A stretch of DNA of 64,000 nucleotides from Ectothiorhodospiraceae bacterium WFHF3C12 (GTDB lineage Bacteria > Pseudomonadota > Gammaproteobacteria > Nitrococcales > Nitrococcaceae), in NCBI GenBank assembly GCA_013519935.1, contig JACDUA010000003.1:1-64000 (forward strand), given 5' to 3'. Position numbers and translations under genes: made by a program. Positions 34,798 to 39,037 of the stretch are shown here, piece by piece. Below the pieces are notes generated by a model. That model searched no databases and had not been told where the DNA came from. It was given only the letters and a program-made list of their open reading frames with translations. Position 1 is the stretch's first letter; every line of letters starts with the position of its first letter.

Positions 34798-36444
34798 ATG
34801 GCAGGCGACTGGTTCTCCGCGTCCGTGGCGGGTTTCATGCCCCACGGTGGGTGTTATCTATGGCGTCCCGACGTGCTCTGGCTGCACGTCGTCTCCGACA
34901 CCCTGACCGGGCTTGCCTATTATTCCATTCCGGTGGCGCTTCTGGTCTTCCTGCGAAGACGCGAGGACGTCGTCTATCACTGGATGTTCCTGCTCTTCGC
35001 CGCCTTCATTTTCGCCTGCGGCACGACCCACCTGTTTTCGGTCTGGAACGTCTGGAACGCCCACTACTACACCGAAGGTGCGGTCAAGGGCGCGACCGCC
35101 GCGGTATCCGTGCTGACCGCGATACTGCTCTGGCCGCTGATTCCCCGCGCCGTGGCCCTGCCCAGCCCCGGTCAACTGCGCGAGAGCAACACGCGGCTGG
35201 CCGCGGAGGTCGAGCGCCGGGAAGCGGTCGAGCGGGAGCTGCGGGAACACCAGGACACCCTGGAACAGCGGGTGGAGGAGCGTACGCGCGCCCTCGAGGA
35301 TCTCAACCGCACTCTGGAGCGGGAGGTGCGCGAGCGCCGCGCCGCCGAGGCGCGCTTCCGTCAGCTTTTCCAGGCGAGCCCCGACGGCATGATCGAGGCC
35401 GACGCCGAGGGTGTCGTGCAGCTGGCCAATCCCGAGGCCGAGCGCATATTCGGCTACGACAGCGGCGAGCTCATCGGGCGCGGCGTCGAGTCTCTGATCC
35501 CGGCGGGTTCGCGCGAGCAGCACGCCGAGTTCCGCCGCAGCTATGCCCGCAATCCCGAGGCGCGGCCCATGGGTCAGGGCCGCGACCTGCGGGGCCTGCG
35601 CAGAGACGGCAGGGAGGTACCGCTGGTCATCGGGCTGAGTCCGATCACGGACGGCGAGGACGCCGGGTCGGTGCTCGCCTCGATCATCGACATCAGCGAT
35701 CGCAAGCGCCTGGAGCAGCGCCTGGCGGCCAACAACCAGGCATTGCGCCGCTCCAACGCCGAGCTGGAACAGTTCGCGTTCATCGCCTCCCACGACCTGC
35801 GCGAGCCCCTGCGCAAGATCCAGTCTTTCTCGAACCTCCTGACCTCCGGCCGTTATGGGCGGTTCGACGAACAGGGCAACGAGTTCATCGGCTACATCAC
35901 GAGCGCGGCCGAGCGCATGGAGGCGCTGCTGGACAGCCTGCTCCGCTACAGCCGAATCACGTCCAAGGCCGCGCCTTTCGAGTGGCTGTCACTGGACGAC
36001 GTGCTGCGGGCGGTACAGGCGGACCTTCAGCTGCGCCTTGAAGAACGCGGCGCAATACTGGAATGGGCGTCTCTGCCCGAGATCGAAGCCGACGCCGCAC
36101 AGATGCGTCAGCTCGTGCAGAACCTGGTTGGCAACAGCCTGAAATACGCGCGGGAGGATTTGCCGCCGCGCGTCCGGATCAGCGGTGAGATCGGCGACGA
36201 CGGTCTATGCCGTCTGACGCTGTCCGACAACGGCATCGGCTTCGACCGTAGTTACGCCGAGCAGATCTTCGAGGTGTTCAAGCGCCTGCACGGTCGCGGC
36301 GTTTACGAGGGCACCGGCATGGGATTGGCGATCTGCCGCAAGATCGTTGAGCGGCACGGCGGTCATATCGAGGCCGACAGTGCACCCGGCCAGGGCGCCA
36401 CCTTCCACATCACCCTGCCGGTGACGCAAGGGGACCATTCATGA
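34798..36444 (+). CDS. Histidine kinase with ethylene-receptor-like N-terminal domain and PAS
   Basis: 548 aa. Three membrane helices (about 28-120) carry the plant/cyanobacterial ETR1 ethylene-binding pattern: SDTLTGLAYYSIP, and FACGTTH. The key positions keep ETR1 spacing: Asp34-Tyr41 (7 apart), Cys74-His78 (4 apart, copper ligands) and Asp34-Cys74 (40 apart). A coiled coil (RESNTRLAAEVERREAVE to RRAAEARF) leads to a PAS domain (about 190-300). HisKA follows with FIASHDLREPLRKIQSF (His near 329) and HATPase with NLVGNSLKYA, DNGIGF and GTGMGLAI. Its stop overlaps the next receiver (ATGA). A predicted membrane sensor of ethylene or a similar small hydrophobic ligand; ligand identity is inference. 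Confidence 0.87.
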   Translation: MAGDWFSASVAGFMPHGGCYLWRPDVLWLHVVSDTLTGLAYYSIPVALLVFLRRREDVVYHWMFLLFAAFIFACGTTHLFSVWNVWNAHYYTEGAVKGATAAVSVLTAILLWPLIPRAVALPSPGQLRESNTRLAAEVERREAVERELREHQDTLEQRVEERTRALEDLNRTLEREVRERRAAEARFRQLFQASPDGMIEADAEGVVQLANPEAERIFGYDSGELIGRGVESLIPAGSREQHAEFRRSYARNPEARPMGQGRDLRGLRRDGREVPLVIGLSPITDGEDAGSVLASIIDISDRKRLEQRLAANNQALRRSNAELEQFAFIASHDLREPLRKIQSFSNLLTSGRYGRFDEQGNEFIGYITSAAERMEALLDSLLRYSRITSKAAPFEWLSLDDVLRAVQADLQLRLEERGAILEWASLPEIEADAAQMRQLVQNLVGNSLKYAREDLPPRVRISGEIGDDGLCRLTLSDNGIGFDRSYAEQIFEVFKRLHGRGVYEGTGMGLAICRKIVERHGGHIEADSAPGQGATFHITLPVTQGDHS

Positions 36445-36890
36445 GCGAGCTGCAGCCCATCCCGATTCTGATGGCGGAGGACGACCCCGAGGATCGCCTG
36501 CTGACCCGCGAGGCGTTCCGGGAGGGGCGCCTCGCGAACCCGCTGTTCTTCGTCGAGGACGGCGAAGCCCTGATGGACTACCTGCGACGCCGCGGAAGCT
36601 ACGCCGATGAAGCGCTATACCCGTTCCCCGGCGTCGTGCTGCTGGACCTGAACATGCCGCGCAAGGACGGCCGCACCTGCCTCGCCGAGATCAAGCGCGA
36701 CCCCGGGCTGCGGCATCTGCCCGTGGTTGTGCTCACCACCTCCGCCCAGGAAGAGGAGGTGGTCCGCAGCTACGACCTCGGCGCCAACTCCTTCGTCAGC
36801 AAACCCGTGGACTTCAACAAGCTGGTAGGCATCGTGCAGACGTTCGGGTGCTACTGGTTCTCTATCGTGGAGCTGCCCGATGCCCCCTGA
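36441..36890 (+). CDS. Rcp1-like single-domain response regulator
   Basis: 149 aa, receiver only. ILMAEDDPEDRLLTREAF, phospho-acceptor Asp in VVLLDLNMPRKDGR, TTSAQEEEVVRSYDLGANSF and the Lys in VSKPVDFNKL are all intact. The PEDRLL/NMPRKDGR/KPVDF wording and the extended C-terminus place it in the phytochrome-associated Rcp1 group, which dimerises through that tail. It overlaps the kinase by 4 bp and the GGDEF-EAL gene by 11 bp, so it is the obvious partner of the upstream kinase. Confidence 0.92.
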   Translation: MSELQPIPILMAEDDPEDRLLTREAFREGRLANPLFFVEDGEALMDYLRRRGSYADEALYPFPGVVLLDLNMPRKDGRTCLAEIKRDPGLRHLPVVVLTTSAQEEEVVRSYDLGANSFVSKPVDFNKLVGIVQTFGCYWFSIVELPDAP

Positions 36891-38589
36891 CGTTCTGAAG
36901 GTTGCGGTCATCGAGGACGACGACGAGGACTTCGTGCTCGTCTCCGAGGCGCTCAAGGCCGCCCAGCGCACGCGCTTCGAGATCGTACACGCCGCCGGTC
37001 TCGCCCAGGGCCGCCTCGCGCTGCTCGACGACAGCTACGACGTCTTCCTGGTGGACTACTTCCTGGACGAAAACAGTGCCGATTCACTCATCAGCGAGGC
37101 ACGGCGGCTGAGCCACCCTAGCCCCCTGGTGGTGCTCACCGGCGCCGACTCCCGGGACCTCGACGACCGGCTGATCGAGATGGGTGCGGCCGACTTCCTT
37201 CCAAAGCGGGAGCTGGCGCCCGCGCTGCTGGAACGCACCATACGCCACGCCGTCGACCGCAAGCAGTCCGAGAACCAGATGGCGCGGCTCGTGAAGCAGG
37301 ACGCCCTGACCGGGCTGGGCAACCGTCAGCTCTTCGAGGAGAACGTGGAACGGGCCATCTCGCGGGCGAGGCGGCACAACGGCAGCTTCGCGATCATCTT
37401 TCTCGACCTGGACCGTTTCAAGGAGGTCAACGACACCCTCGGCCATCACGTCGGCGACCTGCTGCTGATACTGGTGGCGGACCGGCTGCAGCGCGCCACC
37501 CGGGATAGCGACTTCGTCGCTCGCATCAGCGGGGATGAGTTCACCCTGCTGCTGGACGACATCCGCGAGACGGGCGACGCCGAGATAATCGCGGAAAAGC
37601 TGCTCGATACCCTGCGGTCACCGACGCCCATTCATGACGTCACGCTGAACATCACCGCCAGCCTTGGCGTCGCCTGTTTCCCGGAACACGGCGACACGCC
37701 CATGGAGCTCATGCAGAAGGCGGATATGGCCCTGTACGAGAGCAAGCGCGCCGGCAGCGGCCGGTACCGCTTCTTCAGCCAGGAGATGCAGGCGCGGCTG
37801 GAGCGCAACATCGACATGGAGCAGGGCCTGCGCCACGCGCTGGATGCCGGCGAGCTCTCGCTGCACTTCCAGCCCATCTGGCGGTTGTCGGACCGGCGGA
37901 CCGTAGCGGCCGAGGCGCTGCTGCGCTGGCGTCACCCTGCTGGGTACATGGTTTCCCCGGCTGAATTCATCCCGGTCGCGGAGCGAACGGGGCTGATCCT
38001 GCCCGTCGGCAACTGGGTGCTGGATGAAGCCTGCCGGTTCCTGCGGCGGCTCGACGACGCAGGGCATTCCCGGCTCGATCTGGCGATCAACGTCTCGCCC
38101 AGGCAGCTCGGTCCACACACCTTCACGGAGACCGTCGAGCGCCACCTGGCTGCCCACGGCGTCGAGGCTTCGCGCCTGGAGCTGGAGCTCACGGAGGAGA
38201 CGTTCATCGAGACCGGAGACGAGATGAAATCACTGCTGACGGATTTCCGGAAGCTGGGTTGCAGCATCGCGATCGACGACTTCGGCACCGGCTACTCGTC
38301 CCTGCGCTACCTCAAGCACTTTCCCGTTCACCGGCTGAAGATCGACAAGAGCTTCATCTCCGGCGACGGCGCGGACGTTGCCGAGCCGGCGATCACCCAG
38401 GCCATCGTCAATCTCGCAAAGTCCCTCGGCCTGACCCTGGTGGCGGAAGGCGTCGAAACCCCGCAACAGGCTGATTTCCTGCTCGCCGAGGGTTGCCAGT
38501 TCGGCCAGGGCTTCCTCGTGGCACCGCCGATGGAAGCCGATGAATTCATCCAGTTCCTGCAGAACCAGCATCGTGACGGACCGCCGTGA
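36880..38589 (+). CDS. Receiver-GGDEF-EAL cyclic-di-GMP enzyme
   Basis: 569 aa. The receiver (1-125) has VIEDDDEDF, LVDYFLDENSAD (Asp near 52), LTGADS and the Lys of LPKREL. GGDEF domain (about 135-300) has DALTGLGNRQLFEENV, LDLDRFKEVNDTLGHHVGD and a signature written SGDEF, a form compatible with activity. The EAL domain (about 310-560) has AAEALLRWRHP, the TEETFIE helix, DDFGTGYSSLRYLKHFPVHRLKIDKSF (cited by DDFGTGYS) and VAEGVET, so its metal and catalytic residues look complete. It is probably bifunctional with one activity dominant, controlled by phosphorylation through the operon's kinase. It overlaps the upstream gene by 11 bp. Confidence 0.93.
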   Translation: MPPDVLKVAVIEDDDEDFVLVSEALKAAQRTRFEIVHAAGLAQGRLALLDDSYDVFLVDYFLDENSADSLISEARRLSHPSPLVVLTGADSRDLDDRLIEMGAADFLPKRELAPALLERTIRHAVDRKQSENQMARLVKQDALTGLGNRQLFEENVERAISRARRHNGSFAIIFLDLDRFKEVNDTLGHHVGDLLLILVADRLQRATRDSDFVARISGDEFTLLLDDIRETGDAEIIAEKLLDTLRSPTPIHDVTLNITASLGVACFPEHGDTPMELMQKADMALYESKRAGSGRYRFFSQEMQARLERNIDMEQGLRHALDAGELSLHFQPIWRLSDRRTVAAEALLRWRHPAGYMVSPAEFIPVAERTGLILPVGNWVLDEACRFLRRLDDAGHSRLDLAINVSPRQLGPHTFTETVERHLAAHGVEASRLELELTEETFIETGDEMKSLLTDFRKLGCSIAIDDFGTGYSSLRYLKHFPVHRLKIDKSFISGDGADVAEPAITQAIVNLAKSLGLTLVAEGVETPQQADFLLAEGCQFGQGFLVAPPMEADEFIQFLQNQHRDGPP

Positions 38590-39037
38590 CACAGCAACGC
38601 GTCCCGACGACGGCATCGACATTCTGCTGTCAGTCGCCGACGGCGACGTTCGTCGCACATTGCAGCAGACCCTGCGCAGCAGCCGGCTCGGGCACCGGCT
38701 CACCCTCGTCGACAGCACCGAAGCGATGTTCCGTTACCTCGAGGACACCATCCAGCGTGCACGTCCCCTGCCGAACCTCGTTCTGCTCGGCCTCGATCGC
38801 GATGGCGGCGAGGACGTCCGGGTCATGCAGGCGCTGAAGGCCGACCCCGAACTGCGCCCCATCCCGGTCATTGTCCTGGTCGGCCGCGGAGACGGGATAC
38901 GCACCCGGCAACTCTACGAGCTGGGCGCCAGCTCGGTGGTCCGCGTGCCCCTGCACTTCGCGGATCTGGTGGACATCATGCGGGTCCTTGAGCGCTATTG
39001 GGGCACGGTCGCCAGGCTACCCGGGACAGACCGTTAG
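38573..39037 (+). CDS. Degenerate receiver (pseudo-receiver) protein
   Basis: 154 aa from a GTG at 38573, overlapping the GGDEF-EAL stop by 17 bp. The fold is Rcp1-like: IDILLSVADGDVRRTLQQTL, MFRYLEDTIQRARPLPNLVLL, ALKADPELRPIPVIVLVG and GASSVVRVPLHFADLVDIM align with the strands of the 36441 gene. However, the phospho-acceptor Asp is Gly (NLVLLGLD), the Thr is Val and the Lys of KP is Val (RVPLHF). It should not be phosphorylated and may instead compete for dimerisation or for the kinase. The exact start is uncertain because the frame is open further upstream. Confidence 0.72.
   Translation: MTDRRDTATRPDDGIDILLSVADGDVRRTLQQTLRSSRLGHRLTLVDSTEAMFRYLEDTIQRARPLPNLVLLGLDRDGGEDVRVMQALKADPELRPIPVIVLVGRGDGIRTRQLYELGASSVVRVPLHFADLVDIMRVLERYWGTVARLPGTDR

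Follow-up and report, generated by a model that had tools for sequence, protein, structure and literature searches.

Whether a bacterial histidine kinase that carries a membrane domain of the plant ethylene-receptor kind could itself be an ethylene receptor, and to what output it would then be coupled, is the question raised by this locus of Ectothiorhodospiraceae bacterium WFHF3C12. We analysed the kinase in its surroundings on the window, i.e. the whole stretch of 64,000 nucleotides, and we read it as a membrane-bound ethylene receptor like the bacterial Etr1 proteins, with its own phosphosignalling operon, which would pass the signal to c-di-GMP; we put the probability of this reading at roughly two in three. 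The order receptor kinase, response regulator (RR1), REC-GGDEF-EAL enzyme and receiver-like protein (RR3), here called the cassette, was found in 12 genomes. The kinase gene of the window contains the following features:

34798..36444, + strand: ethylene-receptor-like sensor histidine kinase of 548 aa, composed of sensor domain (EBD, three helices), linker, PAS, HisKA and HATPase (open reading frame, Pfam, alignment, model)
34873..35160, + strand: ETR1_N domain, aa 26-121 (PF25487, 128.6 bits, E 1.1e-37), with helices 24-54, 61-87 and 90-119
34897..34932, + strand: helix-1 site residues D34, Y41, I44 and P45 (ETR1 D25, Y32, I35, P36), from sequence, kept in 12 of 12 cassettes
35008..35031, + strand: helix-2 site residues I71, C74 and H78 (ETR1 I62, C65, H69), kept in 12 of 12 cassettes and invariant in a 60-row alignment
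35086..35088, + strand: K97, counterpart of the output lysine (ETR1 K91, AzoEtr1 K98), from sequence, kept in 12 of 12 cassettes
35353..35694, + strand: PAS domain, aa 186-299 (PF00989, E 8e-15)
35767..36426, + strand: HisKA with phospho-acceptor H332, and HATPase_c (Pfam); H332 is invariant in six aligned rows including the window

The start codon of the kinase, an ATG, lies two bases downstream of the sequence GGAGGAG. An ethylene-receptor-like domain on a bacterial histidine kinase had been proposed in the preliminary description, and this was borne out: PF25487 is matched from profile position 2 to 97 of 97, with 128.6 bits against a cut-off of 27 bits, and is followed by PAS, HisKA and HATPase domains. 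By these scores the ETR1_N match is far beyond chance, and the sensor domain was matched once in its own genome, whereas 14 control genomes gave no match. Asp34, Tyr41, Cys74 and His78, put forward earlier as a copy of the ETR1 site, indeed reproduce its spacing (D-Y 7, D-C 40, C-H 4). All seven ETR1 binding residues and the helix-3 lysine are present in the window protein (D34, Y41, I44, P45, I71, C74, H78 and K97); Y41 matches ETR1 Y32, which we take to be an ethylene-binding residue. In the literature, ETR1 C65, H69, I35, P36, I62, D25 and K91 are named as site or output residues (PMC6586836, PMC11819568), and D35, C75, H79 and K98 of AzoEtr1, the receptor of Azospirillum brasilense, are equated with ETR1 D25, C65, H69 and K91 (PMC11819568). 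The window residues D34, C74, H78 and K97 are these AzoEtr1 residues minus one position. The three-helix architecture assumed at the outset was recovered in an AlphaFold2 model built from 60 aligned domains, which predicts three long helices (24-54, 61-87 and 90-119) with a mean pLDDT of 88. Neither a sequence search (E up to 1) nor a fold comparison with the PDB (E 0.001) found a solved relative of the sensor domain, and a GAF domain was not among the seven Pfam families matched at E 0.001. Judged from sequence, the window protein is a real, well-conserved sensor of the known ethylene-receptor type.

The ligand of such a site could be another one. A copper (or redox) sensor, or a sensor of some other small alkene or alkyne, might use the same Cys/His site, which is formally a Cu(I) site with a ligand specificity that is unreadable from sequence, and we saw no sign here that the organism meets ethylene. 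We nevertheless regard this as improbable, since conservation extends beyond the Cys and His to all seven ETR1 ethylene residues in every one of the 12 cassettes, and since 60 aligned domains show no variation at Y41, I44 and I71 and a conservation of at least 90% at D34 and P45. That the domain is vestigial, or a membrane anchor without ligand, is very unlikely: degenerate ETR1_N domains are known, with L012, L013 and L040 lacking one or more site residues, but the 11 other cassettes have kept the complete site at a domain identity to the window of 51-63%.

The preliminary description had further named plants and cyanobacteria as the known bearers of ethylene receptors and called a candidate in a proteobacterial operon notable. 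A restriction to these two groups is wrong, as AzoEtr1 of the alphaproteobacterium A. brasilense binds ethylene directly (PMC11819568). Binding of 14C-ethylene resides in its first 130 aa, and both gene disruption and ethylene result in less biofilm (PMC11819568). A 2020 review predicted genes for the domain in many proteobacteria and cyanobacteria, with varied outputs (PMC7700396), and our scan of genome contigs yielded at least 583 stretches encoding a relative of it, obtained with two patterns so that some genes are perhaps counted twice. Given these three lines, a proteobacterial candidate is not remarkable in itself. When the best 80 of the at least 583 loci were kept, they gave together with the window 81 full-length EBD proteins, among which Pfam matched ETR1_N in 81, HATPase_c in 66, a receiver in 13, GGDEF in 8 and EAL in 8. 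At the level of the class, 12 of 369 genomes (the own genome counted) have a domain above the cut-off; the figures are 28 of 398 for the phylum and 2 of 54 for the order, again with the own genome. The distribution is therefore patchy, and near the window the EBD is rare, a point that counts against our reading; the other positive genome of the order encodes EBD and GGDEF-EAL in one frame.

ETR1_N-type domains were also encountered on 19 plasmid records (H1-H19), including those of Deinococcus aquaticus, a root-nodule Rhizobium and a Pseudanabaena plasmid typed as conjugative. On a plasmid of Eleftheria terrae (L049, 5926-7686), an ethylene-receptor-type protein with a receiver match near its C-terminus is annotated merely as ATP-binding protein.

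AzoEtr1 is described as a 525-aa EBD-PAS-histidine kinase with an overlapping response-regulator gene, AzoRR-etr1 (PLoS Genet 2025, PMC11819568). A likely counterpart in our data is an open reading frame on a plasmid of A. brasilense Sp 7, which has the 525 aa given for AzoEtr1 (PMC11819568) and a domain that is 58.5% identical to that of the window over 118 aa. AzoEtr1 and the window share the EBD-PAS-kinase build, the seven binding residues and the output lysine, an overlapping gene for a stand-alone response regulator and about 58% domain identity. By its architecture, compared with the available description of AzoEtr1, the window encodes a putative bacterial Etr1-type two-component receptor, i.e. 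an EBD-PAS-kinase with an overlapping downstream response-regulator gene. The two differ in what follows, as the available text on AzoEtr1 describes no adjoining c-di-GMP enzyme or pseudo-receiver (PMC11819568). The GGDEF, kinase and RR1 of the window, used as queries, had no match in the 12.4-kb Sp 7 locus at E 1e-4; this reflects divergence rather than absence, because the published response regulator was missed as well.

Downstream of the kinase, the window continues with three genes:

36441..36890, + strand: RR1, stand-alone Rcp1-like response regulator of 149 aa with acceptor D69, T100 and K121 intact, overlapping the kinase stop by 4 nt (PF00072, E 3e-18)
36880..38589, + strand: REC-GGDEF-EAL protein of 569 aa with REC D59 and K109, SGDEF and an RxxD I-site, and EAL catalytic motifs, overlapping RR1 by 11 nt (Pfam, alignment, motif search)
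38573..39037, + strand: RR3, degenerate (pseudo-)receiver of about 154 aa from a GTG (alternative ATG start at 38540), overlapping the preceding stop by 17 nt (alignment, receiver-fold model)

A promoter scan upstream of the operon returned no convincing promoter. In the REC-GGDEF-EAL protein, the motifs SGDEF (in place of GGDEF), RxxD, EALLRW, INVS, ELTE, DDFGTG, KIDKSF and EGVE were all matched. With all searched catalytic and inhibitory motifs present, the protein is a predicted c-di-GMP enzyme. Its REC domain scores below the Pfam cut-off (27.7 versus 30.2 bits) with key residues conserved. RR3 has G73 at the aligned position of the acceptor Asp and V125 at that of the conserved Lys, and the Pfam receiver match is marginal (E 0.0056). 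A model of RR3 from five rows (pLDDT 74) nonetheless displays the (beta-alpha)5 receiver topology, with the cyanobacterial Rcp1 as best PDB match (E 1.9e-9), so that RR3 is modelled as a pseudo-receiver, folded like a receiver but with no phospho-acceptor Asp at the aligned position. RR1 is a relative of RR3, and both have a C-terminal YW motif.

The 12 cassettes are those of the window, of four named genomes, namely Marinobacter sp. (L051), M. lipolyticus (L052), Saccharospirillum salsuginis (L054) and Hahella ganghwensis (L091), and of seven further genomes. Among 121 genomes of the M. lipolyticus family, 44 gave matches at E 1e-80, and regions from 13 of these were examined: eight contain the cassette (one being the Hahella genome again), in one (G824) the EBD is arranged differently, and in four the stretch examined gave no EBD match. 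With M. lipolyticus counted, at least 9 of the 121 genomes carry the cassette. RR1 is intact in all 12 cassettes, and in all 12 RR3 lacks both the acceptor Asp and the conserved Lys at the aligned positions; a few RR3s, that of the window included, have an Asp two residues beyond the aligned acceptor position. Taking in each case the start codon closest to the preceding stop, the kinase and RR1 genes overlap in 12 of 12, as do the RR1 and enzyme genes, and RR3 overlaps in the window only, following at a gap of 0-34 nt in the other 11. The PAS domain was found in four cassettes (window, L054, L091, L210) and not in the other eight, and is thus outside the constant core of the cassette. In the Hahella enzyme, one searched EAL motif had no match. 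Among the matches listed in searches of open-licence papers on ethylene receptors together with c-di-GMP enzymes or Marinobacter, we found no description of the four-gene operon, the kind of sensor itself being known. A link of the window protein to c-di-GMP, named in the preliminary description as a response to look for, gains support from this conserved operon with its predicted REC-GGDEF-EAL gene.

Two loci hold related but looser arrangements. In a gammaproteobacterial MAG (L060), an EBD kinase is encoded together with an RR1-like gene and a REC-GGDEF gene of 323 aa, and there is no RR3 match, hence RR3 does not accompany every EBD-linked set of c-di-GMP genes; in Microcoleus (L089), an EBD kinase is accompanied by RR1 (54%) and a REC-bearing gene without GGDEF match. 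As a side observation, genes with GGDEF and receiver matches lie divergent from the ETR1_N gene in L007, L030 and L036. A GGDEF match inside the ETR1_N open reading frame itself was seen in L059, L067, L070, L071, L082, L086, L114 and L127, with a GGDEF-EAL alignment for L059, L071, L114 and L127. Their hosts are Methylobacter, Methylomonas and other Methylococcaceae, a Methylophilaceae genome and deltaproteobacterial MAGs. Such proteins represent a second predicted route from the sensor to c-di-GMP.

The kinase might signal to RR1 only, the enzyme being merely co-transcribed and controlled elsewhere, in a manner compatible with ethylene binding; RR1 is the better-scoring receiver (66.4 versus 27.7 bits for the enzyme REC), and a response regulator is the only such gene described beside the receptor in the available account of AzoEtr1 (PMC11819568). 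We hold this to be a substantial though less likely alternative, given that D59 and K109 of the enzyme REC are conserved in five of five aligned enzymes, that the gene order is common to 12 genomes and that RR1-like genes keep company with REC-bearing genes elsewhere too. The latter emerged from 14 comparison regions chosen by REC similarity, which cover all but one of the 15 places that rank next to the window by their REC; none of the 14 had an EBD match. In nine of these 14, an RR1-like gene lies directly 5' of the REC-bearing gene, and the kinase alongside has no EBD (same strand in six, divergent in three). A full-length GGDEF-EAL gene is present in five of the nine, and REC-kinase or REC-GGDEF genes in the rest. 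The idea of output genes unique to ethylene receptors was rejected on these grounds: as similar kinase/RR1/REC-bearing gene sets occur without EBD, the output is not specific to ethylene.

As to origin, a tree of REC-GGDEF-EAL proteins places those of five EBD cassettes in a single clade (support 100/99), apart from 11 similar proteins without EBD. In the EBD tree, the window, L051, L052, L054, L091 and the cut-short L057 belong to a supported set of eight (98/82), which also holds the non-cassette L006 and L110, few columns being available for this tree. Since three changes of the cassette label are needed there, it is not proven that sensor and operon were inherited together.

The 14 regions gave no support to RR3 being a general part of the gene set without EBD, as their only RR3 match was RR1 itself. 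A search of 339 genomes of the class, in which the window is the sole known cassette, gave one high score, the window with 165 bits, followed by a place with 91 bits; the places examined were the window and the 11 next-best (L225-L235), and all 11 of these possess the acceptor Asp and are ordinary receivers. Across the cassettes, the 14 regions without EBD and the best places in the 339 class genomes, RR3 as a separate gene was thus found only with this receptor. We tentatively propose, at somewhat less than even odds, that Marinobacter, Saccharospirillum, Hahella and the organism of the window use a dedicated four-gene relay from ethylene to c-di-GMP, of which a conserved, phospho-dead Rcp1-like RR3 would be part.

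The working of the receptor can be sketched from its homologues, and the steps below are what we infer. The three-helix domain would be a dimer in which C74 and H78, kept in position by D34, coordinate Cu(I); the published ETR1 model places C65 and H69 in the dimer interface (PMC6586836). Ethylene would bind at this Cu(I) site, by homology with ETR1 and AzoEtr1, and the signal may run through K97 and helix 3 to the linker, the PAS domain and the kinase. By analogy with other receptors, ethylene probably lowers autophosphorylation at H332, as the authors of the AzoEtr1 study predicted for their protein (PMC11819568). The kinase would phosphorylate RR1, the REC domain of the enzyme, or both, less phosphate being passed on with ethylene present. 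Ethylene might thereby change c-di-GMP and hence attachment or motility; in A. brasilense, c-di-GMP and biofilm are lowered by ethylene (PMC11819568), and the sign may differ here. RR3 could be a non-phosphorylatable partner, probably binding RR1 or the enzyme: the YW motif common to RR1 and RR3 would suggest an RR1-RR3 or an RR3-enzyme complex.

Other known systems resemble the window in part. SynEtr1 of Synechocystis (slr1212/slr1213) is likewise a bacterial ethylene receptor with a histidine kinase and a separate response regulator, but it is a light and ethylene receptor with a chromophore-binding GAF domain, and its regulator activates a small RNA (PMC11819568, PMC7700396); the window protein instead has a PAS domain, no GAF match and a c-di-GMP enzyme in its operon. 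The transmembrane sensor domain of Arabidopsis ETR1 is homologous and has every site residue, but ETR1 also has a cytoplasmic GAF domain (PMC6586836), and signalling by plant receptors is for the most part independent of histidine kinase activity (PMC11819568), whereas the window has no GAF between sensor and kinase, an intact kinase and partner genes. RR3, finally, recalls Rcp1-type phytochrome regulators, the best PDB matches of its model being Rcp1 and bacteriophytochrome regulators; those systems have a phytochrome as sensor where an ethylene-type membrane domain is found here, and RR3 is without the acceptor Asp.

The pathway from receptor to response is stated as unknown by the authors of the AzoEtr1 study (PMC11819568). 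Because receptor, regulator and enzyme form one conserved operon, the link from receptor to c-di-GMP is open here to a direct genetic test. If the proposed relay is real, ethylene sensing coupled directly, by its own genes, to a c-di-GMP output would occur beyond plant-associated bacteria and cyanobacteria. The genera Marinobacter, Saccharospirillum and Hahella, and probably the organism of the window, are marine or halophilic, and the mechanism, if as proposed, would extend ethylene sensing to bacteria usually found in sea or salt water.

Relatives of the domain also occur in viral sequences. Maribacter phage Molly_1 (L048, 5977-6846) encodes a 289-aa protein with an ETR1_N match of 60.9 bits (cut-off 27), in which the copper-site Cys and His are kept and an Asn stands instead of the Asp. 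In a fold comparison, a single viral model reached E 0.001, a BFVD model of 289 aa that is probably, by its length only, this same protein. Its gene adjoins that of an N-acetylmuramoyl-L-alanine amidase, similar stretches are present in eight Molly/Colly records, and being beside a lysin the protein might be holin-like. In addition, eight IMG/VR contigs (L237-L244), whose classification as viral we took as given, encode relatives of the domain that are up to 56% identical.
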